Source: a virus
Length of the DNA stretch: 64,000 nucleotides
Reading direction: 5' to 3' (one strand)
Virus record (IMG/VR): IMGVR_UViG_3300027746_000016
Coordinates: 30,966-94,965 of that record
A program made the position numbers and the translations under genes. The notes beneath the pieces are model-generated. The model was not told where the DNA came from and did no database searches. It saw nothing but the letters and a program-made list of their open reading frames with translations. How positions within the stretch are numbered: the first letter of the stretch is position 1; every line of letters begins with the position of its first letter. Shown here piece after piece: positions 3,364 to 26,951 of the stretch.

Positions 3364-3765
3364 TCATTGCCTTTTTTTAATAGTTTTAAGGTTTGGAATA
3401 TTCTCTAAATCTCCGTCTAAATCAATTAAACTTGGATCAAATACAACTTCTGGGTATGCCCCTATTAAAAAATCTAGAGTATTTAATATTGTATTTGGAG
3501 AAATATTTGAGTTAATATAAATTATCCTATTATATTTACGGTTTCTAACATTTACGGCTTTGTCTATTAATTTCTTAATTTCATAATTTATTAAAAAAGA
3601 TTGAATTTTATTTGGAACAACAATATCCTGCTCAAACTTTTCACGTATTATTTTAGTTACATTAAGAAGATAATCTGATTTTCCTTTTTTGTTTAGTGCA
3701 TGTACAAACTGTTTTAAATCCCTTACGAAAACTATTTCCAGTGATCTATCTGTGTTATCGATCAT
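3364..3765 (-). CDS. Hypothetical protein, last gene of replication operon
   Basis: This 133-residue protein is not recognised. It is mixed alpha/beta in character, with a basic stretch (NVRNRKYNRIIYINSN) near residues 73-88 and a basic C-terminus (KTIKKRQ). Its start overlaps the end of the dCMP deaminase gene by 11 bases, which suggests translational coupling. It is the last gene of the minus-strand operon before the terminator at 3325. A role in nucleotide metabolism or replication is suggested by location only. Confidence 0.65.
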   Translation of the reverse strand: MIDNTDRSLEIVFVRDLKQFVHALNKKGKSDYLLNVTKIIREKFEQDIVVPNKIQSFLINYEIKKLIDKAVNVRNRKYNRIIYINSNISPNTILNTLDFLIGAYPEVVFDPSLIDLDGDLENIPNLKTIKKRQ

Positions 3766-4228
3766 TTATGTCGATTTTTTTAACTTCAACTCCTGCTCTC
3801 CGCAAAAAGTCTAATCCGTTGGTATCACGGTATTCTTCTAAATATACAACTCTGGTAATTCCAGCCTGCATAATTAATTTACTACAGTCAGTACACGGAG
3901 AGTATGTTACATAGAGAGTAGAGCCATTACAACTTTGGGTTGATTTAGCAACTTTTAAAATTGCATTGGCCTCGGCATGTAAAACATACCATTTTGTTTT
4001 ATATTCTTTAAATGATCCATCTTCATTATTAATAGCCTCTTCACATTCATTTTCAAAACCAGCAGGCGTACCATTATATCCATCTGAAATAATTGAATTA
4101 TCTTTAACAATTAAGGCTCCAACTTTTTTACGGTTAGCATGTGATAATTGTGACCATGACTCTGCCATAGCGATATAAGTTTGGTCAAACCTGTGCTGTC
4201 TACTTGAGTACTTACGAGCAAGTATCAT
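3755..4228 (-). CDS. dCMP deaminase
   Basis: This 157-residue zinc enzyme of the cytidine deaminase fold is expected to convert dCMP to dUMP, feeding dTMP synthesis. The signature is complete: HAEANAI, with the zinc-binding His and catalytic Glu (about residues 84-90), and SPCTDC with the two zinc-binding Cys (about 109-114). The N-terminal region (SQLSHANRKKVGALIVKD) and GYNGTPAGF also fit phage and bacterial dCMP deaminases. It overlaps the upstream dCMP hydroxymethylase-like gene by 4 bases, so two enzymes that use dCMP are translationally coupled. Confidence 0.93.
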   Translation of the reverse strand: MILARKYSSRQHRFDQTYIAMAESWSQLSHANRKKVGALIVKDNSIISDGYNGTPAGFENECEEAINNEDGSFKEYKTKWYVLHAEANAILKVAKSTQSCNGSTLYVTYSPCTDCSKLIMQAGITRVVYLEEYRDTNGLDFLRRAGVEVKKIDINDR

Positions 4229-5112
4229 TTTTTAATTTTTGAAATATTTTTATAAATCCATTTAATTAAACTATTACCGTCTTGAAAAATCAGGTATTGT
4301 TTATCTTCACTACTTATTGACTCAAATAGGGTTATTAAATTTGAACTTGGGGTTCCATCTATCTCTATTAAATTAGTAATAGGTAACGGTAATGATTCTG
4401 GTTTAAATTCAAAACCTAACATTTTAGAAGAAATATCATAGTGCTTATCATAGATATGATATGAATTAGAGACATGAGTATATGAACCAAGTTTTAATTT
4501 TGGATAAAATTCCTTTAAGTGAATATACATCTGTAATTGTAATGAACAGAAAAAGGCAACATCAGTTGGAGTACCCCAAATTGCATCATTACTTCTCATA
4601 AATACTGACATATAAAATTTATTATTTCTTATATGACAATTTGCATACATTGTACATACAAAATCTTTATTATCAGAATACTGATGAATTGGCATGTTAA
4701 AGTGCATTACTGCCTGCCTAGTATTTGGGTCTTTTATTAAACTTTGAATTGCCCATTGATATTGTGAATAATTATCAGAATTTTTAAGTGTAAAAATTAA
4801 ATTACCATAGGCTGAGTTAACTGTTCCATCTGGATTTTGGATAGATTCCCAAAACTTGGCCCATTGTGAAATAAATTTAACATCATTACGACCTAAATAA
4901 TACCATAACAATTCAGCCGCAATATAGCCAGTTTGAGATCCGCGTGTGTCATTTGTATATAAACAACTGGTTGGATCCTCAATAACTAGTGCAACATCTA
5001 ATAATTCTTTACTAGTAGTTCCACGAGCACCATTTTCTTCACCATTAACCAATAGGTAAGAAATTGAGTCTTTATAACAAGCGGCAAATGATTGACCATT
5101 AAATACTAACAT
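4225..5112 (-). CDS. gp42: Thymidylate-synthase-fold enzyme, probable dCMP hydroxymethylase (gp42-like)
   Basis: This 295-residue member of the thymidylate synthase superfamily is expected to add a one-carbon unit from methylene-tetrahydrofolate to C5 of a pyrimidine nucleotide. The catalytic Cys is C153 in DFVCTMY, followed by MRSNDAIWGTPTD, with HIYDKHY later. The residue that selects the base is Asp184, exactly 31 residues after the Cys. Thymidylate synthases have Asn at this place (C146/N177 in E. coli), and T4 dCMP hydroxymethylase has Asp (C148/D179). VNSAYG, PNTRQAVM and MRSND also resemble T4 gp42. I therefore prefer dCMP hydroxymethylase, or dCMP methylase, over thymidylate synthase. 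Product unproven. An early-type promoter motif lies just upstream. Confidence 0.8.
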   Translation of the reverse strand: MLVFNGQSFAACYKDSISYLLVNGEENGARGTTSKELLDVALVIEDPTSCLYTNDTRGSQTGYIAAELLWYYLGRNDVKFISQWAKFWESIQNPDGTVNSAYGNLIFTLKNSDNYSQYQWAIQSLIKDPNTRQAVMHFNMPIHQYSDNKDFVCTMYANCHIRNNKFYMSVFMRSNDAIWGTPTDVAFFCSLQLQMYIHLKEFYPKLKLGSYTHVSNSYHIYDKHYDISSKMLGFEFKPESLPLPITNLIEIDGTPSSNLITLFESISSEDKQYLIFQDGNSLIKWIYKNISKIKK

Positions 5113-13408: not shown

Positions 13409-14800
13409 TTAAGTTTTTTTAGTAGATTTTTCACTGTCTAATTGCTCTTCTAATTTTTTCATTTCATTTTTTGTATCAACTCTACCATTATACAGTTTGG
13501 TTAAAATAGTTCGAGCAGCTGAGTCAAATTTATTTGTAAATATCGTACAATTCTTTGTTAAAATAGTTTCAGGATTTATTACAGTATCCGATTTAGATTT
13601 ACCAACATATGAGTCTGGCGAAATATTAAACTGTATTTGAATGTTTGGATACATTGATGCAAAGTCAAAACATGAAACATACTTATAGAATCCTGGTTCT
13701 GGTTTTGCAACATAGGCACCATCATAAGTTGCTTCATTTTCAACATCGCGTTTATCATTTGCCATATAGCGGCCACGTGCTAAAAATTCACGACACATTA
13801 AGGTTTCAGTAATGAATACTGCACTAAATACTTTTGATACGTCAACTTTTGCAAATTTAGATATTGCAAAAGCTACATCAAGTAATCCTAATTTATCTTC
13901 AATTAATTTAACTAGGATTGTATCAATTATATTGTATTTTACGAAATTTTCAATATCTTGTTGAGCTTCCATCATTGTTGCATAGGCACTATGTAATTTA
14001 GTAGTTCCCAATACAAGATTTGCAATATAGTCTAATTTATAATTCTCAACCACTTTATATGGTTTAGTGTTCATAAATACTTCCATGTAATCTAATAAGC
14101 CTAAATGGATTGGCATTTTATTTTTACCTATTAATTTAGCACATGGCATTTTTTCCATAGGATCAATACCTAACCGCTTACACCGGTTAATTAAATAAAG
14201 CCAGTCAAAGCCAATAACATTCCAACCAGTTAAAAATGGAATTTTAGGAAGAGCTTTATGAAAAAACATATTTAACATATCTTCTTCTTTTTCAAAATAG
14301 ACATATTTAATTGAAAAGATTTGACTGTGGGCTTTAAAATAGTCATTTACTTCATCTTGCATGGTAGAAACAGTTTTATTTGATAAGTCTTTCATGGTTG
14401 AAAGTACAAAACAAACGTTATCTTCATTTACAAATGTAATTAAATTAACTGGCATTAGAGCCTTTGCTGGATCAGGAAAATCTTGAGATGTTAATTGAAT
14501 CTCAATATCTAAATAATATTTTTTAGGGCTAAGATCTGAATATACTTTAACTAATTCATCTGGTGTTAATCTGGTTTGGGTTAATTCTTCTAGTCTAAAT
14601 CGATTAAGCCACTTATTTTGGGCTTTTTTTAAATATCGGTTATCCCAATTACGAAATTCAGTTGGGTTAGGCGTAAGCATCCAATTAAATAAGTCAGCTG
14701 ACTGAATTGGCTTTTTGATAAAAGCAATATTACCAGTTTCATCATAATATGAAATCATTAAGGTTGAGTCATCACTATTAAATTCAGTACTAATTATCAT
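13409..14800 (-). CDS. gp43: Family B DNA polymerase, N-terminal exonuclease half only (split gp43)
   Basis: This 463-residue protein matches the first half of T4-like DNA polymerase. 3'-5' exonuclease motifs are intact: YLDIEI (Exo I), GWNVIGFDWLYL (Exo II) and YNIIDTILV (Exo III, Tyr and Asp). Polymerase motif A follows as DFASMYPN (379-386), then QFNISPDSYVG. The protein ends 77 residues later in the fingers region. Motif B (KxxxNSxYG) and motif C (YGDTDS) are absent here and anywhere else in the window. T4 gp43 is 898 residues. The other half must be encoded elsewhere if the enzyme works. Split gp43 genes are known, from memory, in Rhodothermus phage RM378 and some Aeromonas phages. Confidence 0.9.
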   Translation of the reverse strand: MIISTEFNSDDSTLMISYYDETGNIAFIKKPIQSADLFNWMLTPNPTEFRNWDNRYLKKAQNKWLNRFRLEELTQTRLTPDELVKVYSDLSPKKYYLDIEIQLTSQDFPDPAKALMPVNLITFVNEDNVCFVLSTMKDLSNKTVSTMQDEVNDYFKAHSQIFSIKYVYFEKEEDMLNMFFHKALPKIPFLTGWNVIGFDWLYLINRCKRLGIDPMEKMPCAKLIGKNKMPIHLGLLDYMEVFMNTKPYKVVENYKLDYIANLVLGTTKLHSAYATMMEAQQDIENFVKYNIIDTILVKLIEDKLGLLDVAFAISKFAKVDVSKVFSAVFITETLMCREFLARGRYMANDKRDVENEATYDGAYVAKPEPGFYKYVSCFDFASMYPNIQIQFNISPDSYVGKSKSDTVINPETILTKNCTIFTNKFDSAARTILTKLYNGRVDTKNEMKKLEEQLDSEKSTKKT

Positions 14801-14842: not shown

Positions 14843-15295
14843 CTATGAACCGGTTGAGCCAAATCCACCAGCTCCACGAGCAGTTGTCTCTGAATAAACT
14901 TCAGATTCAGTTAAGCACTCAAGTATAGTAGGTTTTATAATTGGAGTTAATATAAACTGTACAAGTTTATCACCAGGGTTAATAGTAGCTGGAATCCAAG
15001 GTGATGTATTATATACATGTAGATGAATTTCACCTTGATAATCACAATCTACTACACATGCTCCAACTTGAAGTCGCTTTTTTGTAGCAACTCCACTTTT
15101 ATTATAGGCAATAAGTGCTGTGTCTATTGGAATATTAACTCTTATCCCACTTGGAATAAGTATTGATTCCCCAGGTGCTAAAACAATTTGAGTTTCACTG
15201 TTTGGTACAAAAAAATCTAGCCCAGCTGAGCCAACTGATCCATACTCTGGAGTTTTTACGTCTTTTGTTTTAATAAATTTAATAATAGATTGCAT
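14843..15295 (-). CDS. dut: dUTP diphosphatase (dUTPase)
   Basis: This 150-residue trimeric dUTPase hydrolyses dUTP to dUMP, keeping uracil out of DNA and supplying dTMP synthesis. All five motifs are visible: GSAGLDFF (motif I, about 22-29), NKSGVATKK (II, about 66-74), VVDCDYQGEI (III, about 81-90), NPGDKLVQFIL (IV) and ARGAGGFGSTGS at the C-terminus (V, the flexible phosphate lid). Motif II has Asn-Lys-Ser-Gly in place of the usual Arg-Ser-Ser/Gly. It is the first gene of the minus-strand replication operon. Confidence 0.95.
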   Translation of the reverse strand: MQSIIKFIKTKDVKTPEYGSVGSAGLDFFVPNSETQIVLAPGESILIPSGIRVNIPIDTALIAYNKSGVATKKRLQVGACVVDCDYQGEIHLHVYNTSPWIPATINPGDKLVQFILTPIIKPTILECLTESEVYSETTARGAGGFGSTGS

Positions 15296-15483: not shown

Positions 15484-18400
15484 ATGGCACAAAAATTAAA
15501 TTTGAATAATTATAAAGCTAGTGGTGTTTACACAGTTGAGATTGATGAAAGCTCAAATCTTAGCTTACCGTTATCTACTGGTAAATTAGTAATAGGTTCA
15601 AGTAAAAAAGGACCAATTAACTCAGTTGTATTGGTTAATGATACTCGTACATTAACTGCAGTATATGGAGAAATTGATAATAAATTAGAAAAAAACGGTA
15701 GTTTCTTTCATAGAACAATTGATGTTGCTTTAAGACAAGGACCAGTATATGCATTAAATGTATTACCAGTTAGTGCAACAGATAAAGCCTTTTTTAGAAC
15801 ATTTAATACTGAATCTGCTTCAAATAACTCAACTTTTAGTGAAAGTACAAATGACAGCGCAATGTCAAATTTTTATAATAGTCAAAAATTATGGTTTGCA
15901 GACACAGATGCAGTTAATAAGTATAAAAATATTGAATTAGGTGATGATTATATTGCTAGTCCAACTACATATGGTACAGCTGATCGCGATGCAAATAAAA
16001 TTTTAACAATGGTAAATCTTTCAAAGAAAGATATTACAACATGGATTAGAATCGCAGATACTACCGGTTATGATATATCAGTTAAAGATTATTATAAATT
16101 ATTAGGAGATACTGCTGAAGTTCCAGAATTTTTAAGCCCTGATGATATTATTGCTGACTTTTTTGTTGAAGTAATTGTGGTTGAAGGAGACTGGACTGAT
16201 AATTTAAAATTAGCAAATGACCCAGTTTATAGTCAATATTTTACAACAACTGGTATAATTGATGCTAAAATTGGAGATTTTGTTTCAATTAAAGAGGTTA
16301 CACTGGTTGCAAAAGTTCAAGGAAGTATAATTCCTGAATTTAAAGACCTAACTGGCACAACCGTTTCTATTGATGCACTATTTAATCGTAGATTTGCTCA
16401 AAGTGGAATATATTTAGCAATTGACTATAAGAAAATTGATTTAATGGATTTAACTAATGGTAGTTTTTCAAGTGGTTCAAGTACTGAGCCAATTTCAGAA
16501 CAACGCCTTGACTTAATTGGATCTGGAGTTGATGAATTAAATTCAGGTACAACTGATTTAAATGTAATTACTGAAACTAATTTATACACAGTAGATGATG
16601 ATACTAATGTTCATCAAGCTGTAAATTTAATTGATGTCTTAAGTTATAAAAAACCAGTATCTTCAGAGTTTTATTTTGAATTAGATAGTATTACAGCAAC
16701 GGCAGCAACTACCTATGCACAAGGTGACGTTTATATTTTTGTAACTGATACAGATACAATTGTTGCAACCGAAGGAAGTAAGTTATATAGTGCATGGGCA
16801 AATGGTTTTGTTAAAAACGGAGACTATTTAAAATATAGTTCAACTATTCTATATTTAGCAACTACTGGAGAAATTAAAACTAAAAATTCAGTTAAGTATG
16901 TTGTATTTGAAACATACAGTGATGTAACTAGAACAGTTCAAGTTAATGCACAAAAAACAACAGTAAATGGAGTTAATTTCTTATGGATTCAACAAGCAGC
17001 AGATGAAGATTTTTTAATGGACTTTGACTTAACTGACTCTGACTATTTTGTTTCATATTCGTATTTAGCTCCAAATAAATTAATTTTTACAGTTGATCCT
17101 ACCCTTTATGGTAACACAGCAAAGGGCGAATCAATTATAACAAATGCAGCACAAGGAATTGTATATGATGCAACTAAAAGATTACTAGTTGATTCATATA
17201 TGAAAGTTGGTCAATATATCAAAGCTAAAATTAAAACTGATGCAAATGGAGATCCTCTTTCTAGAAATAGAATGTTACAGATTAAATCAGTATACGCACA
17301 AAAGGTATTAAATATAACTGGCGGACCCTCAAGTGTACCAGGTTTAATAAGTTTAAAGTATACAATTACCTTATCTTCACCAAGTGATCCAAATATATTA
17401 GGTATTAATTTTGAAAGTGATACAACAATTAGAGCATATAAAGGAATAAAGAAATATATTACAAGTTTAGCCGGTGCAAAAATACCAGCAATGAATTTAT
17501 CTGAAGTTGATCTTTATCCAAATGGAACAGCTGCTCGTCAAAATGATATTTTAGATTTCTTATTTGACAGTAGTAATTTAGCAACTACTCTTGCTGATAA
17601 TGAGACTGTTGATTTTCGTTATATTATTGACTCGTTTGAAGGTCAAATCCAGTCTGGTTCAAAACAGCAATTGGCACAGTTAGCTGCAAATCATGGAAAA
17701 GCCCTGGCAATTTGTAATGCACCTTCATTTGCACAATACGAACGATCAGTAGATCCTAGCTTTATTGATTTTACAACTAGATTAGTTTCAACCGAAGCAA
17801 TTTCAACCGGTGGAGACCTAACATCAAATCCTTCATTTACATTTGGATTTGCAACTGGAGATAAAGGAGGTATTGCGGTTTCGACCTATTCTGCCTATTT
17901 TATGCCAAATGTAGTTATTTTTGAAAATGGTAAGAATAAATCTATTCCACCAGCAATGTATGTTGCAAATACCTTTATGAGAAAATATTCAAGCGGTAAT
18001 ACATTCTCAATTGTAGCAGGTAAAAATGGTATTTTAGCTGAACCAGAAATTAGTGGATTAGAATATGACTTAACTAATGATGATCGTGCCTATTTAGAGC
18101 CAGCCGGATTTAACTTAATTGTTAGACGTAGAGGTTTTGGAATAATGATATTCTCTAATAATACAGGTTTTCAAAGAGTAAGAAGTGCCCTAAATAATAT
18201 ACACGTTAGAGAAGCCTTAGTTACAATTGAAAGAGATGTTGAGAGAATTTTACTTAATTTCTTATTTGAATTTAATGATGCAACTACCAGAATGAGAGTT
18301 AAAACCTTAGTTAAAAACTACCTATCTGCCGTTCAAGAAGCTCGAGGTATTGCAACTGCTGAAGTTATATTTGATGATTCAAATAATGGAGTTGAAGTGC

Positions 18401-18537
18401 TTGAAAATAATGCTGGAATAATTGATATTATTGTAGATTTCCCAAGAGGAATACACAAATTTATCAACCGTATTACAATCACAAGAGCTGGAGGCCAATT
18501 AGCTTCAAGTTCTTCAGGATTTACACCTTCATTCTAA
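15484..18537 (+). CDS. gp18: Contractile tail sheath protein, gp18-like
   Basis: This 1017-residue protein is the sheath subunit whose contraction drives the tube into the host. The N-terminus (GVYTVEID, then STGKLVIGSSKKGPINSVVLV) and the C-terminal domain are typical of sheath proteins. The latter shows YLEPAGFNLIVRRRGFGIMI, ALNNIHVREALVTIERDVER and a final VDFPRGIHKFINRITI strand, used for subunit-subunit linking. T4 gp18 is 659 residues. The extra length lies in the middle (about 130-650), probably surface-exposed inserted domains. A peptide GPSSVP (about residue 615) recurs in other tail proteins here. Two late promoters precede it and a terminator follows. Confidence 0.9.
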   Translation: MAQKLNLNNYKASGVYTVEIDESSNLSLPLSTGKLVIGSSKKGPINSVVLVNDTRTLTAVYGEIDNKLEKNGSFFHRTIDVALRQGPVYALNVLPVSATDKAFFRTFNTESASNNSTFSESTNDSAMSNFYNSQKLWFADTDAVNKYKNIELGDDYIASPTTYGTADRDANKILTMVNLSKKDITTWIRIADTTGYDISVKDYYKLLGDTAEVPEFLSPDDIIADFFVEVIVVEGDWTDNLKLANDPVYSQYFTTTGIIDAKIGDFVSIKEVTLVAKVQGSIIPEFKDLTGTTVSIDALFNRRFAQSGIYLAIDYKKIDLMDLTNGSFSSGSSTEPISEQRLDLIGSGVDELNSGTTDLNVITETNLYTVDDDTNVHQAVNLIDVLSYKKPVSSEFYFELDSITATAATTYAQGDVYIFVTDTDTIVATEGSKLYSAWANGFVKNGDYLKYSSTILYLATTGEIKTKNSVKYVVFETYSDVTRTVQVNAQKTTVNGVNFLWIQQAADEDFLMDFDLTDSDYFVSYSYLAPNKLIFTVDPTLYGNTAKGESIITNAAQGIVYDATKRLLVDSYMKVGQYIKAKIKTDANGDPLSRNRMLQIKSVYAQKVLNITGGPSSVPGLISLKYTITLSSPSDPNILGINFESDTTIRAYKGIKKYITSLAGAKIPAMNLSEVDLYPNGTAARQNDILDFLFDSSNLATTLADNETVDFRYIIDSFEGQIQSGSKQQLAQLAANHGKALAICNAPSFAQYERSVDPSFIDFTTRLVSTEAISTGGDLTSNPSFTFGFATGDKGGIAVSTYSAYFMPNVVIFENGKNKSIPPAMYVANTFMRKYSSGNTFSIVAGKNGILAEPEISGLEYDLTNDDRAYLEPAGFNLIVRRRGFGIMIFSNNTGFQRVRSALNNIHVREALVTIERDVERILLNFLFEFNDATTRMRVKTLVKNYLSAVQEARGIATAEVIFDDSNNGVEVLENNAGIIDIIVDFPRGIHKFINRITITRAGGQLASSSSGFTPSF

Positions 18538-18558
18538 TTAAAAAAGTTTAATACAAAT

Positions 18559-18590
18559 AAAAAAGGACCTCAATTTGAAGTCCTTTTTTT
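18559..18590. terminator. Terminator after tail sheath
   Basis: AAAAAAGGAC pairs with GTCCTTTTTT across an 11-base loop. The symmetrical A and T runs let it act in both directions, ending the sheath message and possibly minus-strand transcripts leaving the gene at 18681. Confidence 0.88.
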
Positions 18591-18680
18591 ATTTAGGTCA
18601 AGCCAGTTAAGCCGTATCCACCAATCGGTTTAGAGGTCCGATAACCTTATTTAAAATAATAACCAAGCCGGCAGGTTAAT

Positions 18681-18968
18681 TTAATCTTTAATTAATTGTT
18701 TTTTTGCTTCGCACTTATCAATACGTGAATCAACGTAAGAGTGAAGCTGATCTATTCTTTGACCTGTTTGCTTATGCAAGTCATCGACTAAACGATGTGT
18801 ATCTTGGAAGTTTTTATCCAATCTATTTTCTGCATGGTGCATGTGATCTTCTATACTTTGTATTTGGTTTTGCTGTTTTAATACCTTCACAATACCCATA
18901 ACAATAACTGTTAATATAATAACAGCTACTACAGAGAGTACTCCAAAAGTAAATGATAGTGTTTCCAT
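18681..18968 (-). CDS. Small membrane protein with coiled coil
   Basis: This 95-residue protein has one strong N-terminal membrane segment (about residues 6-30, VLSVVAVIILTVIVMGIVKV). A charged heptad-like helix follows (about 33-85, EDHMHHAENRLDKNF and LHKQTGQRIDQLHSYV). Orientation, with a short N-terminus outside and a long C-terminal coil inside, is not certain. It could act in lysis, superinfection exclusion or membrane anchoring, but no family is recognised. It lies after GroES and HAD-type genes and before the sheath terminator. Confidence 0.7.
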   Translation of the reverse strand: METLSFTFGVLSVVAVIILTVIVMGIVKVLKQQNQIQSIEDHMHHAENRLDKNFQDTHRLVDDLHKQTGQRIDQLHSYVDSRIDKCEAKKQLIKD

Positions 18969-19008
18969 ATGTTTATTTTGTTTTTTTAGTTGCCGGCAAG
19001 GCTACTAT

Positions 19009-19584
19009 TTAATCTTTTAAATTGGTAAAGATCTCTTCCAATACTCTAATTGTATCAGTTGAGTCATTATGAAAAACCGAGGTTCCACCGGCTGCTGCCC
19101 AATCCTCTAATTTTTTATGATTATCATCAATTAATATATCATTAGCTGACTTTGCAAATAGATATTTGTCTTTTGCAATAATAAGATGAGTTGTATCAGT
19201 TAACCCGTCAGGTTTTAATACGGGCTTTTCATTAATATTTAAATTACGTTTTACCCATTCAGTTTTACCAGAGACTGAGTGTTCTCCACGACTTGGAGAA
19301 GTTAAAATAGTTGGATTATATCGGCTAAGATAGTCCCATAATTCGCGGCCGTCTTTTGTCCATGGCAGTTTTTCCCAAAATGCAGAGCCACGGTCATCAA
19401 TTAGTTTCCAAATTGAGTTTTTTCCGTGTTTCTTATCGTATTCATTAGGTGTTAAATGATCTGGATTTGACTTAAGTCGCTTGAAACCTCGTTTAAAGTC
19501 TACTAAAACTCCATCAAGGTCGCAAAATACACGTTTATCGTCTATTTTTTCCTCGGTTATGAACTGTTTAAATTTTTTAAGCAT
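19009..19584 (-). CDS. HAD-family 5'(3')-deoxyribonucleotidase-like phosphatase with capsid-targeting-like N-terminus
   Basis: I choose the ATG at 19584 (191 residues), which overlaps the groES end by 8 bases; an upstream TTG at 19599 is possible. HAD motif I is clear as VFCDLDGVLVDF (about 19-30), followed by a cap region and motif II in TILTSPSR. The acidic ILIDDNHKKLEDW is motif IV. This fits the NT5C-like deoxyribonucleotidase group that removes phosphate from deoxynucleoside monophosphates. The first residues, MLKKFKQFITEEK, match the T4 capsid-targeting and prohead-cleavage form (aromatic-polar-polar-aromatic-I-x-E). If real, the enzyme might be packaged. Substrate unproven. Confidence 0.8.
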   Translation of the reverse strand: MLKKFKQFITEEKIDDKRVFCDLDGVLVDFKRGFKRLKSNPDHLTPNEYDKKHGKNSIWKLIDDRGSAFWEKLPWTKDGRELWDYLSRYNPTILTSPSRGEHSVSGKTEWVKRNLNINEKPVLKPDGLTDTTHLIIAKDKYLFAKSANDILIDDNHKKLEDWAAAGGTSVFHNDSTDTIRVLEEIFTNLKD

Positions 19585-19909
19585 GGTCGCTGATTTCAAA
19601 TGTTGTGTCTATATCTTTATTTAACACCGCAACTAGATCATTTGCCATAACTACATGAAAATCTTCACCAGCCCATTTAACATTTAGGCCAGAGTATCTT
19701 TGGTATAGGACATAATCACCTTCTTTTATTGGACACTCAGAATTTTTTGAAACCATATGGCCTACTGCAATAACAGTACCTGTATTTGGACGCTTTCGAG
19801 CCTCAACTGGTAAAATAATACCAGTCTCTGTCTTTTTTTCAACTGAATCTGGCTTAATTAGAATTCTTTCAAACAATGGCTTAAAGCCGGTTTTTGCATC
19901 TGTACTCAT
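19577..19909 (-). CDS. groES: Co-chaperonin GroES
   Basis: This 110-residue GroES-type co-chaperonin caps the GroEL ring during folding. Visible features are FKPLFERILIKPD at the N-terminus, a mobile loop around TETGIILPVEARKRP, GTVIAVGH, then EGDYVLYQRYSGLNVKWAGEDFHVV and a final DLVAVL. This is much closer to bacterial GroES than T4 gp31 is. It forms a tight operon with rnh (1-base overlap) upstream and the HAD gene downstream. The phage GroEL gene lies about 12 kb away on the same strand. Confidence 0.93.
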   Translation of the reverse strand: MSTDAKTGFKPLFERILIKPDSVEKKTETGIILPVEARKRPNTGTVIAVGHMVSKNSECPIKEGDYVLYQRYSGLNVKWAGEDFHVVMANDLVAVLNKDIDTTFEISDHA

Positions 19910-21018
19910 TAGTTTTTATAATTTTTTTTAAATTTAAAATAGTTAAATCGCTTTCTATCATTTAACTTAACTGAATTTGCGATAGCCTCAGTTATCTCGG
20001 TTGGAAACATTGCGGTATGTAATCTGATAATAGAACGATTACGTAATAGGTTATTCTGGATCGCTAGAGTTTCGCTAGGCTCATCTATTTTTAAGACTTC
20101 ACATGTAATATTATTAAGTTTAGGCATAAATGCTGAGTCACCCGAATCAATTAGACTCTTAATTGTAGTCCAGTCAAATGATTCCTTAACGAGTTCAATT
20201 ACTCTAGCTGTTTTGGCTGGAGTTAATTTTGGATGAACTCTTGGAATATTATCAGATTTATCACCAGATAAAACTTTTGTTAAAATATCAAGAGCTGGAT
20301 CAATTATAAAGTGTTTATAGTCTTTTTTAGTAAGATTCTCTAATACATTTACCACAGTTGAATTATCTAATGAATCTATTTCAAAATTAAATAGGTCTAC
20401 ATCAGTATTTACAGAATCATTGATATCTGCAGTGGTATAGATTTTCTTAAATTTAGTCATCATTTTTGGCATTATCATAATTACTTTACGAGATCCACCT
20501 TCTAATAATTGAGTTAAGTCAGTATCAACTGACCAAATACAGATATCTTCATTTAAATTTTCGCAAATGTATGCAATTAAGTCATCGCCTTCAGCTCCAG
20601 TAACCCGATTTGATAAGATTCCATATTCCTCGGTTAGAGTAGGTAAAACTTCAGTTTGAAAGTAGTCAAAAAATAGATAAATTTTGTCATCATATTTGCG
20701 GTTACCTTTATATGAAAAGTCGCCAGCTCCATGATCTTCAAACTGCTCTTTTATAAATTTCTTTCTCCAACTCTTTGAGTCAAATACAAAAAATACCGAA
20801 GAGATATTTTCTTTAAAAGGAGCAAAGATACTACCTAAATAATTTAATGAAAACGATTTAAATGCATCTTTGCTAGCCTGTTTTAACATAAATTTATCAG
20901 TTGACCATAAATCTGAAACATAATATTTTTCGCCAATGCTTTTATTTGTAGATAGAATATTTTTTACAATACTTACTGCCACATTCAAAAATGCATTACC
21001 GTCTATTACTATGTTCAT
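19909..21018 (-). CDS. rnh: RNase H / 5'-3' exonuclease (T4 rnh, FEN-1 family)
   Basis: This 369-residue flap-type nuclease removes RNA primers from lagging-strand fragments. Acidic metal-binding motifs appear in order: IDGNAF at the N-terminus, FVFDSKSWRKKF (about 73-84), GAEGDDLIAY (about 138-147), SVDTDLTQLL (about 160-169) and LSGDKSDNIPRV (about 248-259). The last two are the helix-hairpin and K+/metal sites of the family. It is longer than T4 RNase H (305). It lies next to genes for gp32 and GroES; T4 rnh likewise acts with gp32. Confidence 0.92.
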   Translation of the reverse strand: MNIVIDGNAFLNVAVSIVKNILSTNKSIGEKYYVSDLWSTDKFMLKQASKDAFKSFSLNYLGSIFAPFKENISSVFFVFDSKSWRKKFIKEQFEDHGAGDFSYKGNRKYDDKIYLFFDYFQTEVLPTLTEEYGILSNRVTGAEGDDLIAYICENLNEDICIWSVDTDLTQLLEGGSRKVIMIMPKMMTKFKKIYTTADINDSVNTDVDLFNFEIDSLDNSTVVNVLENLTKKDYKHFIIDPALDILTKVLSGDKSDNIPRVHPKLTPAKTARVIELVKESFDWTTIKSLIDSGDSAFMPKLNNITCEVLKIDEPSETLAIQNNLLRNRSIIRLHTAMFPTEITEAIANSVKLNDRKRFNYFKFKKNYKN

Positions 21019-21021
21019 AAT

Positions 21022-21342
21022 TTAGTTTTTATCAATTGAATTAACTTCTGGTTTTACACTTAATTTAGTAATTGATTTAGCAATTAATTCAGCTTCCTCA
21101 ATTGTATATGCGCCTTTTCCTTGAGCATGAGTGGCGGCTGCAATTAAAACAATTACAGCATGTTCAAGAGTTAAATTGTTTAAAAACTTATTGTAATCTT
21201 CTAGACTTTCATAGCTAATGCTAGATAGCAAAGTAGCTAATGGCTTCTTAGGATTAGTTTCAGAATTTTCAGTTTCAGTCTTGATTTCTTCAACTTCAGG
21301 TTTAGCTGGAGCAGCGGTTGTCATGTATGTAGAGTCTTTCAT
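21022..21342 (-). CDS. Hypothetical protein sharing an N-terminal segment with gp32's tail
   Basis: This 106-residue protein is not recognised. Its N-terminus, TTAAPAKPEVEEI, nearly copies TAAPAKPEVDEL from the C-terminal tail of the neighbouring gp32, because the two genes share an exact 30-base repeat (21291-21320 and 21389-21418). The central part is helical (LTLEHAVIVLIAAATHAQGK). In gp32 the acidic tail is the docking site for partner proteins, so a copied tail may let this protein mimic it; that is speculation. A second in-frame ATG at 21324 is possible. Confidence 0.7.
   Translation of the reverse strand: MKDSTYMTTAAPAKPEVEEIKTETENSETNPKKPLATLLSSISYESLEDYNKFLNNLTLEHAVIVLIAAATHAQGKGAYTIEEAELIAKSITKLSVKPEVNSIDKN
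21291..21320. repeat. 30-base direct repeat, copy A
   Basis: CAACTTCAGGTTTAGCTGGA plus ten more bases, identical to 21389-21418. It encodes AAPAKPEV near the N-terminus of the 106-residue protein. Confidence 0.9.
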
Positions 21343-21356
21343 TTTAATATAATTTT

Positions 21357-22400
21357 TTAAAGATCATTAAATATTGAATCTAATTCATCAACTTCAGGTT
21401 TAGCTGGAGCAGCGGTTGGTTTAGATGCAGTAGAGCCTAACATATCAGAGTCAATATCAATTGAGATAGAGGTACCCTTTGTTTGAGGAGCGGCTGGCGT
21501 AAATTCTAATGATTCTCCAGCTGGAGCAACAGTTCTTGAAATTGATTTTGTATTTGTAAAATGCTTCTTCATACGTTCATCCTTTAATCCACCTACTAAA
21601 TTATCAATAATTTGTTTATATGGAACAATTGCTTTGATATATTCTGCAACTTTTTCATATTCATAATCAGTCCAATCTTTATAGAAATATTGAGTTAAGT
21701 CAGGAGAATTTTCTTTAAAGTATTTAGAGACAAATTGCATTACCTTTGGATCATTAGAGGTTGGAATTTCCTTGCCTTGAGTTGTAATAATTAATGGGCT
21801 AACTTCGCTCATAAATTTACTTGAACTAAAATCTCTCCATGCTTTGGTTTTACGTTTAATAACTAGCACAAAATCTTTTCCAGCAGTTAATGAAAATGGA
21901 TTAACTTTTTGAATAGTCATTAACTCAGATTCTGGATTAATTTCCTGTTGAATTAAATTATCAATAGTATATCCATATGAATATATTTTAATTTTACCTT
22001 CCATGTTTGGATATTGTGGATCCTTTTTAATGTAAATACATGAATAGAAATTATAGTATCGGTTATAATACTTTTTAATTTCTTCTACAATTGAAGGCTC
22101 GTCTGTTGCTAATTTCTTTAATTCCATATCAAGAGACCATAAGATTGATGGACTTCCATTGGTAGAAGGACAATCAACGAGTAGGCGCTCATTGGTTAAA
22201 GGGTTAATTAATTTAGCAGCATACTTTTTGTATTTGCTCTTTGATGGATCTCCAACCCAAGGAATAAATCGAATAATCGATTTGTAAATTCCATTTTGTC
22301 CTTGATCTGGACCTGGATTGTAAATGTTGTCATCGGTTTTGCGTTGACTTGCGGCCTTGCCGGTAAAGTCGTCTGTGTTTAGATTGAATAGATCTTCCAT
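21357..22400 (-). CDS. gp32: Single-stranded DNA-binding protein, gp32-like
   Basis: This 347-residue protein has the layout of T4 gp32: a short basic N-terminus for cooperativity (about 1-40), a core OB-fold and an acidic, low-complexity tail ending DELDSIFNDL. Matches to the core include LLVDCPST, KKDPQYPNMEGKIKIYSYG and FVLVIKRKTKAWRDFSSSKF. The His/Cys zinc-binding set of T4 gp32 (H64, C77, C87, C90) is not visible; only isolated Cys residues remain, so the zinc site is probably lost. The tail contains TAAPAKPEVDE, which is duplicated in the next gene. An exact early motif precedes it. Confidence 0.88.
   Translation of the reverse strand: MEDLFNLNTDDFTGKAASQRKTDDNIYNPGPDQGQNGIYKSIIRFIPWVGDPSKSKYKKYAAKLINPLTNERLLVDCPSTNGSPSILWSLDMELKKLATDEPSIVEEIKKYYNRYYNFYSCIYIKKDPQYPNMEGKIKIYSYGYTIDNLIQQEINPESELMTIQKVNPFSLTAGKDFVLVIKRKTKAWRDFSSSKFMSEVSPLIITTQGKEIPTSNDPKVMQFVSKYFKENSPDLTQYFYKDWTDYEYEKVAEYIKAIVPYKQIIDNLVGGLKDERMKKHFTNTKSISRTVAPAGESLEFTPAAPQTKGTSISIDIDSDMLGSTASKPTAAPAKPEVDELDSIFNDL
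21389..21418. repeat. 30-base direct repeat, copy B
   Basis: Exact copy of 21291-21320, here encoding part of the C-terminal tail of gp32. The two copies start 98 bases apart. Confidence 0.9.
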
Positions 22401-22432
22401 TTTTCTTTTTATTGATTTTTATATTACTTATA

Positions 22433-22444
22433 TAAATTATACTA
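22433..22444 (-). promoter_or_regulatory. Early/middle promoter motif TAGTATAATTTA
   Basis: An exact copy of the 12-base motif, read on the minus strand, 33 bases before the gp32 ATG. TTGAAAC lies about 20 bases further upstream and could serve as a -35 element; TTGAAACTAGAAT also occurs upstream of uvsX. Confidence 0.55.
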
Positions 22445-22465
22445 TATAATTTAATTCTGGTTTCA

Positions 22466-22498
22466 ATAAAAAAGGGCATAGTGATTAGCTTGCCCTTA
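22466..22498 (-). terminator. Terminator after histone H1-like gene
   Basis: On the minus strand AAGGGCA pairs with TGCCCTT, followed by TTTTATTG. It separates the histone-like gene from the gp32 promoter. Confidence 0.8.
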
Positions 22499-22519
22499 AT
22501 TTAATAATAAGTAATTAGA

Positions 22520-22711
22520 TTATGCTTTAGGAGCAGTAGTCTTTGTTGCTTGAATGTGGGTACGACCTTCTTGACATGAAGCTTTAATTTCTTGTAAAAG
22601 GGCACGAGAACGAGTTCCAGCTGTTTTATTACCTTTTTCGTAAAATTTAGTAGTTTCAGTTTCTAATTGACTGATTGAGTTTTTAAGGGTTTCTAACCAT
22701 GTTGGTGTCAT
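22520..22711 (-). CDS. Histone H1-like (Hc1-type) DNA-binding protein of Bacteroidota type
   Basis: This 63-residue protein contains FYEKGNKTAGTRSR (about 23-36), the hallmark of the small 'histone H1' proteins common in Bacteroidota (FYxKGNxAAGTRxR, then QxxKxxxQ). ALLQEIKASCQEGRTHIQ and an Ala/Lys/Thr-rich end (TKTTAPKA) complete the pattern. These proteins are thought to bind or condense DNA. In a phage, it could shape phage or host nucleoid DNA or affect host transcription. It has its own short transcription unit between gp32 and a virion-type gene, with terminators on both sides. Family recognised from memory of the pattern. Confidence 0.8.
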   Translation of the reverse strand: MTPTWLETLKNSISQLETETTKFYEKGNKTAGTRSRALLQEIKASCQEGRTHIQATKTTAPKA

Positions 22712-22771
22712 ATTAATATAGTATTTTTAGAGTATTATATTAAGAAATATCACCCGGTTTTAAGTATATTA

Positions 22772-22806
22772 AAAAACATCACTAATTTTAACCTTTAGCT
22801 AGTGAT
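22772..22806 (-). terminator. Terminator after proline-rich gene
   Basis: On the minus strand ATCACTA pairs with TAGTGAT around a 15-base loop and is followed by GTTTTTTAA. The stem begins in the stop codon of the gene at 22806. Confidence 0.7.
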
Positions 22807-23357
22807 TACTTTGATCTTAAAAATACTACTTCTAAATTGTCACTAGTTGGATTTTTAAAATTGTCATCTGAATCAAATGTAACATCAACTGTACCTTTAT
22901 CTACTCCAAGTAAACCATCGGTTACTTCTTCTTTAAACTCCGAGTAAATATTTGCAGGAAAGTCTCTTCTTCCAGCAAGGGCAGCCATTACTAAATCTTT
23001 ATCTGATTCCATTTTATGAACCTCTAACCACTTAGTAAGAGCCTCTGGCTCTATTTCATATTGAGTAAATCTCTTAACACCACCTTGGCCATCGTGTGCA
23101 CCGAACCATTTTTTATTCTCTGCATCCTGAATAAAAATAATTTTTGGAGAAGTAGTAGCCGCTGGAGTAACCGGCGGAGCATTCGGATCAGGCGGAAGGC
23201 CGGCTCCCATATCTGGAGGAGGTGGCATTGCCATATCTGGAGCAGGAGGCGGTGGCGGCGGCGGTGGCGGTGGTATTGCAGCATCTGGCGCAGGAGGTGC
23301 TGCAGGCTCATCCTCTAATAATAAATTCTTAAATTCTTTAAATTCTAATATTCTCAT
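22806..23357 (-). CDS. Proline-rich virion candidate with capsid-targeting-like N-terminus
   Basis: This 183-residue protein begins MRILEFKEFKNLLLEDEP, a variant of the T4 capsid-targeting signal (aromatic-polar-polar-aromatic, then L-L-E before an acidic run). Residues 18-65 are a Pro/Ala/Met-rich segment with a run of ten prolines. The C-terminal domain (about 70-183) looks globular, with KIIFIQDAENKKWFGAHDG and a final LEVVFLRS strand. A perfect late-type TATAAATA element on this strand supports a virion role, unlike its early-type neighbours. If cleaved at LLE, the proline-rich region would become the new N-terminus. Function unknown. Confidence 0.72.
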   Translation of the reverse strand: MRILEFKEFKNLLLEDEPAAPPAPDAAIPPPPPPPPPPAPDMAMPPPPDMGAGLPPDPNAPPVTPAATTSPKIIFIQDAENKKWFGAHDGQGGVKRFTQYEIEPEALTKWLEVHKMESDKDLVMAALAGRRDFPANIYSEFKEEVTDGLLGVDKGTVDVTFDSDDNFKNPTSDNLEVVFLRSK

Positions 23358-23384
23358 AGGTATTAATTATATTTTTACTAGTTT

Positions 23385-23392
23385 ATTTATAC
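23385..23392 (-). promoter_or_regulatory. T4-like late promoter TATAAATA
   Basis: A perfect TATAAATA on the minus strand, about 30 bases before the ATG at 23357. It is one of the few late elements on this strand. Confidence 0.65.
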
Positions 23393-23420
23393 AAAAAAAG
23401 CGGGAAATTAATTTCCCGCC
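23393..23420 (-). terminator. Perfect-palindrome terminator
   Basis: The 20-base perfect palindrome GCGGGAAATTAATTTCCCGC (23400-23419) is followed on the minus strand by seven T residues. It ends the ribonucleotide reductase/DUF5522 operon just before the late promoter of the next gene. Confidence 0.9.
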
Positions 23421-23436
23421 TAAATTAGGTTATAGA

Positions 23437-23646
23437 TTAGTGAAGCCTTAAAGTTGAACCGGCTTGATGGATTGGATCATATGGGCAGTGTTTACAACCA
23501 TTTCCGCAACATGAACCTCGCTTTGTATGATATTGTTTGGTCATTATTAGATTACCGTTTTTGTAATAATAGTCGGCATTTTTATAACTACTAATATATT
23601 CAACATATAACTGATAAATCCAGTCATATTTAGCTGGAATTATCAT
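23437..23646 (-). CDS. DUF5522-like cysteine-rich protein
   Basis: This 69-residue protein has the pattern DYYYKNGNLIMTKQYHTKRG followed by SCCGNGCKHCPY. It matches small DUF5522-type proteins common in Bacteroidota (YxxNxxGxxVFTxxYHxxRGxCCxxGCRHCPY). The four closely spaced cysteines suggest metal binding or redox activity. It overlaps the end of the ribonucleotide reductase gene by 4 bases, so the two are translationally coupled. A role as a partner or reductant of the reductase is an attractive guess without proof. Confidence 0.8.
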   Translation of the reverse strand: MIIPAKYDWIYQLYVEYISSYKNADYYYKNGNLIMTKQYHTKRGSCCGNGCKHCPYDPIHQAGSTLRLH

Positions 23647-25499
23647 TGTATTTCACAAGCTCCTCCAGCACAGGCTAATTCGCCAGATAGGTCAGTATTA
23701 TCAACCATTTCAATAACTTTAGATAAGTCAATTCCAGTTAATGATTTTAACATTTCTTCGTATTTTTCTTCAGAGCAGTCCTCAAATGGAGCTTGAATAT
23801 AGGTTCCACCGTTATATGGTAAAACCGATAAGCCATTATAGAATGATTTATTATCCCACATCCATTCACCAACAGTTTCCCATTCGTCTGGTTTAATTGA
23901 AACTGTTGCAGAAATATTATGAGTATTTTGACCGGTACGATGACCAGTTTTTACCCAATTTGAATAAAAAGATTTTACTCTTTCTAGTAATTCAATTGCA
24001 GATTCATTTCTAAATATTGAACCGGCTGGTGCTTTTTGTGGAACTGAAATTACAGCAGTATCATGCGGACGGAAGTACTCATCTTCAAGTAGTTCAGGAT
24101 GATAAATTGCAAGATAAGAATAAATTGCCTCATTTTTTCCAACTCTAATTCTACGAATATAGTGATCATTATGCCATGCATGAATTCCAGAAGAAGTTCC
24201 CAATACCAATGATGAAGTTCCTGATGGTTTAATTGTAGTACATCTGGCTGATGCATTTATCTTAATTTGTTTTGCAACAATTACATTGGTTTCTTTTACT
24301 AGGTCAGCAGCCTGTTTAAGATCAAATTTTTGGGCTGATCCTGAGCCTATACCAGTCATACCAACACCAATTAAAGCATCCTTTTCAGTAGTACGTTGCC
24401 ATATTGGACGTAAATAATGAAAATTAGTATAGCCAGCTTGCAGAGTTCCAATAAATGAAGCAGCTTTAACTCTTTCATTTAAATCTTCTTGTGTAGTAAT
24501 ATCAGAGACATTAACTTCACATAAGTTACAAAATTGAAATGGACGTAGAGCAATTTCACAGCATGGATTAGTACCCCAATCTTTATCGTTTGACAAATAA
24601 ATTCCAGGTTCTCCAGTTCCACTTGCTTCAATTTTTTTCCATAAGTCCATAAAGAAGCTCTTAGTTATCTTATTTCTTAATAAGACCGCTGAGTTATTTG
24701 CTCGGCCCCTTTGTGGATTAAGTTCCCACCATGATCCACTCTTTGAAGAAATCATATTTTCATCATCTGCACTAAATAAAGAAATTAATGCAGCTCGACG
24801 AATACCTCCAGCCAATACCGCATCGGCAATATGACAAACAATATCGTGTACTTCAATACAAGATAATTTATCATTATCAACCTTAGAGTCAAGAATTCCC
24901 TGTATTTTAATTAAACACTCTTTTAAGGGTTGAGGGCCTGGTGCTTTACCACCTGACGTAACTAATAGTGCACCTTTTTGGCGAATATCAGAAAAGTCAA
25001 AATTAATAGTAGAACCACCTTCAAAATAAGACTTCATTAATAATTTAACCGCATCTGCCCAGCCTTCAATTGAGTCTCCAATTAAATATCTACGAGATTT
25101 AGTAGTATTAGGTTTTCTAATTTCTGGAAGTTCGTCAACATGGTGTTTCTGTACTGAATAGCCTACACCAGTTCCGCCTAATAATAAAAACATAATTTCG
25201 CCAAATGCACGCCAATCATCGATCGGTAAATATGCACAATTGTAGATACGATTTGGAGAAATTTCAATTGGTTTACCACCAAACTGTAAACTACGCATTG
25301 ATGGTAGAATTTTTTTATCATACACAAATTTATAAGTCTCATTAATCTCAGCAGTTAACTGTGGATATTTCTTTATGTGCATTTCTTTATTTCGAGTTAC
25401 AAGTTCTTCCCATGTTTCTCTTCTCTGTACATCATTACGAAACCTGGCGTATTTCATATAAACCGTTACGTCTGATAAAATTTCACTTGCTAAATTCAT
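23643..25499 (-). CDS. Class II (adenosylcobalamin-dependent) ribonucleotide reductase
   Basis: This 618-residue protein resembles monomeric B12-dependent ribonucleoside-triphosphate reductases (RTPR/NrdJ type), which make deoxyribonucleotides by thiyl-radical chemistry. Visible parts are LPSMRSLQFGG, NRIYNCAYLP with the first active-site Cys, GGTGVGYSVQKH, NPCCEIALRPFQFCNLCEVN with the radical Cys, IKPSGTSSLVLGTSSGIH and the C-terminal redox pair in CAGGACEIQ. No separate radical-generating small subunit is needed, and none is seen. Activity would depend on host or environmental corrinoid. An early-type promoter motif lies upstream. Confidence 0.93.
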   Translation of the reverse strand: MNLASEILSDVTVYMKYARFRNDVQRRETWEELVTRNKEMHIKKYPQLTAEINETYKFVYDKKILPSMRSLQFGGKPIEISPNRIYNCAYLPIDDWRAFGEIMFLLLGGTGVGYSVQKHHVDELPEIRKPNTTKSRRYLIGDSIEGWADAVKLLMKSYFEGGSTINFDFSDIRQKGALLVTSGGKAPGPQPLKECLIKIQGILDSKVDNDKLSCIEVHDIVCHIADAVLAGGIRRAALISLFSADDENMISSKSGSWWELNPQRGRANNSAVLLRNKITKSFFMDLWKKIEASGTGEPGIYLSNDKDWGTNPCCEIALRPFQFCNLCEVNVSDITTQEDLNERVKAASFIGTLQAGYTNFHYLRPIWQRTTEKDALIGVGMTGIGSGSAQKFDLKQAADLVKETNVIVAKQIKINASARCTTIKPSGTSSLVLGTSSGIHAWHNDHYIRRIRVGKNEAIYSYLAIYHPELLEDEYFRPHDTAVISVPQKAPAGSIFRNESAIELLERVKSFYSNWVKTGHRTGQNTHNISATVSIKPDEWETVGEWMWDNKSFYNGLSVLPYNGGTYIQAPFEDCSEEKYEEMLKSLTGIDLSKVIEMVDNTDLSGELACAGGACEIQ

Positions 25500-25529
25500 T
25501 TTCTTTTTTATTTTTTTAATGTTTCTAAT

Positions 25530-25540
25530 TAAATATACTA
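25530..25540 (-). promoter_or_regulatory. Early promoter motif upstream of ribonucleotide reductase
   Basis: TAGTATATTTA on the minus strand, 30 bases before the reductase ATG, matches the TAGTATAWTTTA class. Confidence 0.5.
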
Positions 25541-25606
25541 AATTACCTGGCCTGTAGAGATAACTTTTTAATTATGACCTACTGGTAAGTTCATTACTTA
25601 ATTTAA

Positions 25607-25732
25607 TTAATGTTTTGTTAATTTACTTGATGCATTTTGAGTACTTAGCCGAATTTTATAATTAGTTTGTTTGTTAATAATTTGACTAATTTTATAAAAA
25701 TTCAACTTCTTAATTAAACTTGACTCTTGCAT
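25607..25732 (-). CDS. Possible 41-residue protein in intergenic region
   Basis: A short frame (starting MQESSLIKKLNFYKISQII) in the 267-base gap between the S1-domain gene and the reductase. A late-like ATAATAAATAAC lies only about 5 bases before the ATG, closer than for other genes. The peptide is basic and has no recognised motif. It may be chance; listed because nothing else explains this gap. Confidence 0.25.
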   Translation of the reverse strand: MQESSLIKKLNFYKISQIINKQTNYKIRLSTQNASSKLTKH

Positions 25733-25766
25733 CTAGGTTATTTATTATACCAATAACTGCTAAATA

Positions 25767-26951
25767 TTACGCGTTTATAAAATCTAATTTTAAAGTTTTA
25801 CGAATAGTATCAACTTTAAGAATTTTAACTTCTCCATCGTTAGGTATTCGGAATTTACCCTTAAGGTGATTTACATCATTTTTGAAAATTTCATTAGTTT
25901 CAGGAATCGTGATTTCAATGAAAAAATTATCTTTATTTAGGACAAAATTTAAGGTACGTCCTTCTATTTCAGTTTTTATTTTTTGCCAAGTAATTTTTTC
26001 TTGATCAACTTTAGCTAAATCATTTGTTAAAATAATTCTAGGTTCACCTTTTTTAACAATAATGTCCTTAATATAGAAATCTAATACATCACCTGATTTA
26101 AAAGTACTTGTGTCTTCAATATAATTAGCAAATTCAGATTTATGAAGTAATCCTGTATAATAATTTTGAAATTCAATAAATATTCCAAATTCATATGGTT
26201 TATTTGTTAAAATTCCAGTATATTTTTTACCAAATTCTAAATCATATACTTTTTGAGGAAGTGTATGTTTGATATATTTCTTGTATGAAATAATATATAA
26301 ATCATTAACGGAATCATAATTTTCTATCATTACTGGAATTTCAGTATTTAAGTAGTCATTAAAATCACGAATTACATTGGCAGCAGCATGAGATCCTGGT
26401 AAGAAACATTTAACGGTTCCTTTGTATAGCGCTAAATATCCACCTTTTACCAAGCTAATAACTTTAACATAAAACCATTTATCAGTTTTTAAGAAGTCGT
26501 TTAGCGTATCTCTATATGAAATTGCAGCACACTGTTTTTCAGATGCATAAAATTCTCCACTGTCAACTTTTGTAATAATGGCTTTAAATTCTCTAGGATA
26601 GTCTCCATTAACTAATAACGAAGGCTCTTCTGAAAAGTCTCTAAATGGAATAAATATTGAAGACTTTGAGTGTTTTTCATAAGTAACAATTAGCTTATTA
26701 TCAAAATCAATACTCTTTGCAATCACTGTACATAATTGGCCTTCACTAAAGTCTTTTATACTGATCATTGAATGAGAGCTATGACTTGAATACATTTCGT
26801 ATAGGTCTTGAGCATAGTTTTCTTTACAATAAATTTTCATACCAGCCGCTGAGTCTGACTCAGTTAATTTTATTGAGGTATTAAATTTTGAATTTGTTTG
26901 ACCGTATACTAGATCAAAATCTGGAGAATTTGGAATATGGGTAGTTTGCAT
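25767..26951 (-). CDS. S1-domain RNA-binding protein, ribosomal protein S1-like
   Basis: This 394-residue protein appears to hold about three S1-type OB-fold repeats. One lies at about 48-125 (EGQLCTVIAKSIDFDNKLIV). A second lies at about 150-215 (VKVISLVKGGYLALYKGTVK, then CFLPGSHAA). The clearest is at about 240-310 (GKKYTGILTNKPYEFGIFIE, then YTGLLHKSEF). Ribosomal S1 and its relatives bind mRNA and help start translation without a Shine-Dalgarno sequence. Given the A-rich leaders in this phage, the protein might steer ribosomes to phage messages; this is inference. It has an early-type promoter motif. Confidence 0.78.
   Translation of the reverse strand: MQTTHIPNSPDFDLVYGQTNSKFNTSIKLTESDSAAGMKIYCKENYAQDLYEMYSSHSSHSMISIKDFSEGQLCTVIAKSIDFDNKLIVTYEKHSKSSIFIPFRDFSEEPSLLVNGDYPREFKAIITKVDSGEFYASEKQCAAISYRDTLNDFLKTDKWFYVKVISLVKGGYLALYKGTVKCFLPGSHAAANVIRDFNDYLNTEIPVMIENYDSVNDLYIISYKKYIKHTLPQKVYDLEFGKKYTGILTNKPYEFGIFIEFQNYYTGLLHKSEFANYIEDTSTFKSGDVLDFYIKDIIVKKGEPRIILTNDLAKVDQEKITWQKIKTEIEGRTLNFVLNKDNFFIEITIPETNEIFKNDVNHLKGKFRIPNDGEVKILKVDTIRKTLKLDFINA

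Follow-up and report, generated by a model that had tools for sequence, protein, structure and literature searches.

A gene labelled thymidylate synthase very probably encodes a T4-type dCMP hydroxymethylase in a jumbo-phage lineage

In this study, we analysed a stretch of viral DNA of 64,000 nucleotides (the window), corresponding to bases 30966-94965 of the 94,965-base virus record IMGVR_UViG_3300027746_000016. The other 31 kb of the record were also read. A gene for a protein of 295 amino acids is found on the minus strand at positions 4225-5112; the plus strand of this region is closed by many stops. We propose, with a probability of roughly 0.8, that the gene product is a dCMP 5-hydroxymethylase belonging to the thymidylate synthase superfamily and that 5-hydroxymethylcytosine, as such or decorated, is probably a constituent of the virion DNA. 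Judged by residues and matches, the enzyme behind the thymidylate synthase label is very probably of the T4 type, and the DNA of this phage family is probably shielded from bacterial defences by modified cytosine. The type of modification is not new. Specialised enzymes of the thymidylate synthase family for 5-hydroxymethylcytosine have already been noted for jumbo phages (PMC7824862), and Asp at the base-selecting position has been linked with modified cytosine in phage DNA from metagenomes (PMC8670742). The element least expected is the exchange of dCTPase and dUTPase beside a hydroxymethylase that is kept. Behind the automatic name, a DNA modification that probably spans the genome goes unnoticed in a jumbo-phage lineage without a cultured member among the relatives found. 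Modified cytosine would bear on restriction, on CRISPR targeting and on how well such phages are recovered by sequencing.

The record itself is a 95-kb fragment, and long relatives of 207-271 kb are present in IMG/VR. It holds a T4-like replication and structural cluster including gp46/gp47, a helicase, UvsX, a family B DNA polymerase and the tail sheath. According to the capsid protein and the recombinase, the nearest public relatives are LR756500.1, a 462-kb uncultured phage, and the Prevotella Lak phages; searches of bacterial and archaeal genomes gave no relative. The DNA polymerase is split. Window positions 13409-14800 encode the exonuclease together with the beginning of the polymerase domain. 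In three relatives (G006, G007, G011) the C-terminal half is encoded approximately 40-45 kb away, and the polymerase of LR756500.1 is likewise split.

Concerning family membership, the 295-amino-acid protein matches Pfam PF00303 (1.6e-19), and Pfam, PHROGs and NCBIfam all name it thymidylate synthase. The preliminary description had warned that this label would miss the dCMP-specific enzyme. The protein scores far under the cut-offs of the NCBIfam ThyA models. In a single-sequence search of solved chains, T4 dCMP hydroxymethylase (3.4e-17) and the CMP hydroxymethylase MilA (5.4e-17) were matched ahead of the top thymidylate synthase (1.4e-11). The lead of both grew with a profile of five sequences, which gave 6e-29 for MilA, 2e-24 for T4 gp42 and 5e-14 for the top thymidylate synthase. 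A fold search with the predicted structure, itself of modest confidence (mean pLDDT 63.5, pTM 0.70), likewise ranked MilA first. MilA, the CMP 5-hydroxymethylase of the mildiomycin pathway, is thus the top fold and profile match, and it shares the selector Asp and the Asp three residues before the catalytic Cys (Cys-3). T4 gp42 has the same fold at 26% identity and lacks the C-terminal extension of approximately 60 residues found in the window protein. The homologue in LR756500.1 is 48% identical to the window protein and carries an identical signature.

The active site supports this assignment. In an alignment with T4 gp42, SPO1 gp29, ThyA and Xp12 relatives, Cys153 (codon at 4654-4656, minus strand) falls on T4 Cys148, the catalytic nucleophile, and Asp184 (4561-4563, minus) on T4 Asp179 and E. 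coli ThyA Asn177, the base selector, as had been proposed from residue spacing. The motifs VNSAYG (98-103), PNTRQAVM (129-136) and MRSND (172-176), pointed out at the same time, are present. Glu67 aligns with T4 Glu60, so that the equivalents of the catalytic Cys, of Glu60 and of the phosphate-binding Arg are all there (Cys153, Glu67, Arg132). At all eleven positions compared (E67, S100, Y102, R132, D150, C153, T154, S174, D184, H219 and Y221) the window protein is identical to T4 gp42, and all eleven residues are conserved in 85 of the 87 related loci, some of which overlap on one contig. The aligned Asp184, together with hydroxymethylase matches ahead of thymidylate synthases, strongly supports the initial reading of the enzyme as dCMP-specific. 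Enzymes that prefer deoxyribonucleotides have Arg and Ser where MilA, with its preference for ribose, has Lys133 and Ala176 (PMC5175136); the window protein has the deoxyribonucleotide-type residues Arg132 and Ser174.

Whether the product is methylated or hydroxymethylated had been left open, and the choice can now be narrowed. The ternary complex of T4 dCMP hydroxymethylase defines a hydroxymethylation signature, Asp (or Glu) at Cys-3 together with Ser/Thr-x-Tyr, and the T4 mutant D145N makes no 5-hydroxymethyl-dCMP (PMC6400193). The window protein has this signature: Asp150 (codon at 4663-4665, minus) corresponds to T4 Asp145, which activates the hydroxylating water, and Ser100-Ala101-Tyr102 (4807-4815, minus) to T4 Ser94-x-Tyr96. 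T4 gp42 and the window protein combine Asp at Cys-3, an Asp selector and Thr after the Cys. Other members of the superfamily differ: the ThyA reference has Leu at Cys-3 and an Asn selector, and SPO1 gp29, which serves 5-hydroxymethyl-dU, has Asp at Cys-3 and an Asn selector. By these residues, and by those of the Xp12 relatives and RB69 considered below, a hydroxymethyl product is favoured over a methyl or a hydroxy product.

An enzyme like that of Xp12, a phage with 5-methylcytosine, would likewise act on dCMP but let a folate hydride complete the methyl group, leading to 5-methylcytosine DNA. The selector Asp is common to Xp12 relatives, and ThyA becomes a dCMP methylase when its Asn is mutated to Asp (PMC8670742). 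However, the three Xp12 relatives compared in place of Xp12 itself (AXL1, DoCa10 and A1432) have Asn at Cys-3, the very residue that abolishes hydroxymethylation in T4 D145N, as well as Pro at Cys+1; at these two positions the window protein, like T4, carries Asp and Thr. In the tree they cluster with ThyA and apart from the window protein. Moreover, AXL1 has a dihydrofolate reductase gene two genes downstream, whereas the window record and five relatives yielded none. We consider a methylase very improbable.

The flavin-type branch of Mosigviruses and phage HY126 (AfhB), a homologous group that also uses dCMP (PMC13390438; PDB 9iqu, 9iqc), deserves attention too, as the window record contains several glycosyltransferase-like genes. 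A 5-hydroxy-dCMP synthase of this kind would yield 5-hydroxycytosine with a sugar directly attached. RB69 belongs to the Mosigviruses with 5-hydroxycytosine (PMC13390438), and its ORF048c, the single RB69-type sequence compared, shares the selector Asp but departs from the window protein by Glu at Cys-3, Thr instead of Ser, RSQN instead of RSND (Gln for Asn) and Phe for the last Tyr. The window profile matched AfhB with just 2.5e-9 as against 2e-24 for T4 gp42. In the tree RB69 is placed elsewhere than the window protein, though on a very long branch; long branches make the positions of T4, RB69, Xp15 and SPO1 unsure. Such a synthase appears very improbable.

For a hydroxymethylase, the reaction would proceed as follows. 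Cys153 would attack C6 of dCMP, Asp184 would recognise and protonate N3 of the cytosine, and one carbon would be transferred to C5 from methylene-tetrahydrofolate. The exocyclic methylene would then take up a water molecule held by Asp150, yielding 5-hydroxymethyl-dCMP; once phosphorylated to the triphosphate, this nucleotide would be incorporated into the DNA of the phage. We infer this activity, the phosphorylation steps, the incorporation into DNA and a resulting protection from host nucleases.

The gene neighbourhood is in line with nucleotide metabolism of the T4 kind. Directly downstream, and overlooked in the preliminary description, lies a dCMP deaminase gene (3755-4228, minus, 157 amino acids; match to T4 cd, phmmer 3e-26); its start and the hydroxymethylase stop overlap by 4 bases. 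The deaminase gene is found directly downstream in 84 of the 85 related loci with room for it; near the homologue in LR756500.1 no dCMP deaminase match was found. Metagenomic contigs of phages with modified cytosine likewise combine Asp at E. coli position 177 with dCMP deaminase neighbours (PMC8670742). Third in the operon is a gene of unknown function (3364-3765, minus, 133 amino acids), present in 85 of 85 loci. It has no Pfam or PHROG match, a profile search was also empty, and a single-sequence structure prediction reached a pLDDT of 45. The T4 genome encodes a dCMP deaminase as well, but an operon of the hydroxymethylase with the deaminase and the 133-amino-acid gene distinguishes the window from T4. 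The overlap and constant company of the two enzyme genes would also suit a route in which 5-hydroxymethyl-dCMP is made and much of it is deaminated by the adjoining enzyme to 5-hydroxymethyl-dUMP, leading to 5-hydroxymethyluracil DNA. T4 possesses the same enzyme pair and yet has hydroxymethylcytosine in its DNA (T4 annotation), and the deaminase sequence gives no pointer to an altered substrate, which makes this route highly improbable.

A source of thymidylate apart from the hydroxymethylase gene is visible in the relatives. Searches of the window record yielded neither a second thymidylate synthase nor ThyX. Each of the eight relatives of 207-271 kb, however, encodes a further thymidylate synthase (E below 1e-63); in the three that were examined, the diagnostic positions carry the canonical residues Leu, His and Asn. 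The 462-kb LR756500.1 has ThyX instead of a second ThyA. The hydroxymethylase gene is therefore not the dTMP source in the long relatives. The arrangement recalls T4, where td stands beside gene 42 and thymidylate comes from another gene. That the gene at 4225-5112 encodes a normal phage thymidylate synthase using dUMP supplied by the adjoining dCMP deaminase, as its Pfam and PHROG names and the dUMP-forming deaminase could suggest, is scarcely credible in view of Asp184 for Asn, Asp150 for Leu and Thr154 for His, the low ThyA model scores and the separate ThyA or ThyX of the relatives.

The preliminary description had found no recognisable dCTPase or hydroxymethyl-dCMP kinase in the window, which holds for enzymes of the T4 type, and had left the rest of the pathway open. 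This rest is now partly visible in the deaminase, in the second thymidylate synthase and in a gp56-type dCTPase; a gp1-type kinase or a proven decorating transferase was not found. A search for homologues of T4 gp56 and gp1, suggested at the outset, returned a gp56-type dCTPase in 11 relatives, with 34% identity to T4 gp56 (phmmer 4e-24 to 3e-22); these counts are non-independent, several such records being near-copies. The sister phages resemble T4 in having this enzyme together with ThyA. The window record, a 95-kb fragment, yielded no gp56-type dCTPase. It encodes a trimeric dUTPase (14843-15295, minus; PF00692, 2.9e-16), which is also present in five other records, G002 among them, and no record has both types.

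Both types occupy the same slot, between the N-terminal half of the DNA polymerase and the tail sheath, in the seven records whose flanks were checked; in G003, G006 and G007 the slot of the window dUTPase holds the gp56-type dCTPase/dUTPase, and that of G011 is likewise occupied by one of the two types. In this respect the window differs from T4, with a dUTPase in the place of the dCTPase. A tree of ten concatenated proteins from seven records implies at least three switches between dCTPase and dUTPase (branch supports 99 or more). T4 gp56 removes both dCTP and dUTP (T4 annotation), and the swap may therefore keep the removal of dUTP only. Where a dCTPase is lacking, cytosine may be only partly replaced. 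Tentatively, we suggest that the T4-type dCTPase has repeatedly been swapped for a trimeric dUTPase while the hydroxymethylase was kept, and that either the trimeric enzyme hydrolyses dCTP, which would constitute a new cytosine purge, or the genome is a mixture of cytosine and hydroxymethylcytosine, unlike the full replacement in T4; we regard this as possible but somewhat doubtful. The alternation at one locus offers a natural comparison of how strictly dCTP must be removed for hydroxymethylcytosine DNA.

Phosphorylation of the product would require a kinase. No convincing match to phrog_139 or T4 gp1 was obtained, the 462-kb relative giving weak P-loop hits only, an apparent further difference from T4. 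Record bases 371-979 encode a P-loop protein of approximately 200 amino acids with an FDRA motif resembling that of nucleoside kinases. It is kept in all relatives covering the region; its top matches are generic AAA models, and its match to deoxynucleoside kinases is non-significant. At most, it may be considered a candidate for the missing hydroxymethyl-dCMP kinase.

Regarding decoration, homologues of T4 beta-glucosyltransferase, EndoII and Alc were not found. Contigs of the kind reported in PMC8670742 often carry a carbamoyltransferase and a PRA-PH (PF01503) pyrophosphohydrolase, whereas searches of the window record and five relatives yielded neither. Upstream of the window, record bases 18203-26242 contain about nine minus-strand genes that are glycosyltransferase-, acetyltransferase- and methyltransferase-like and lie among structural genes. 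The content of this cluster varies by relative, and it is missing at that position in G003, G004 and G011. Its products could decorate hydroxymethylcytosine, a part of the virion or a host glycan. Palindromic 4-mers containing C showed an observed/expected ratio of about 1.0 in the lineage and of 0.8 in parts of T4 and SPO1, a test that was uninformative.

Two further genes of the window were noted. Positions 23643-25499 encode a B12-dependent (class II) ribonucleotide reductase, which among the relatives examined is found only in the near-copy G001. A putative amidoligase-like protein (58271-59623; PF12224, 1.5e-05) is encoded among the tail genes.
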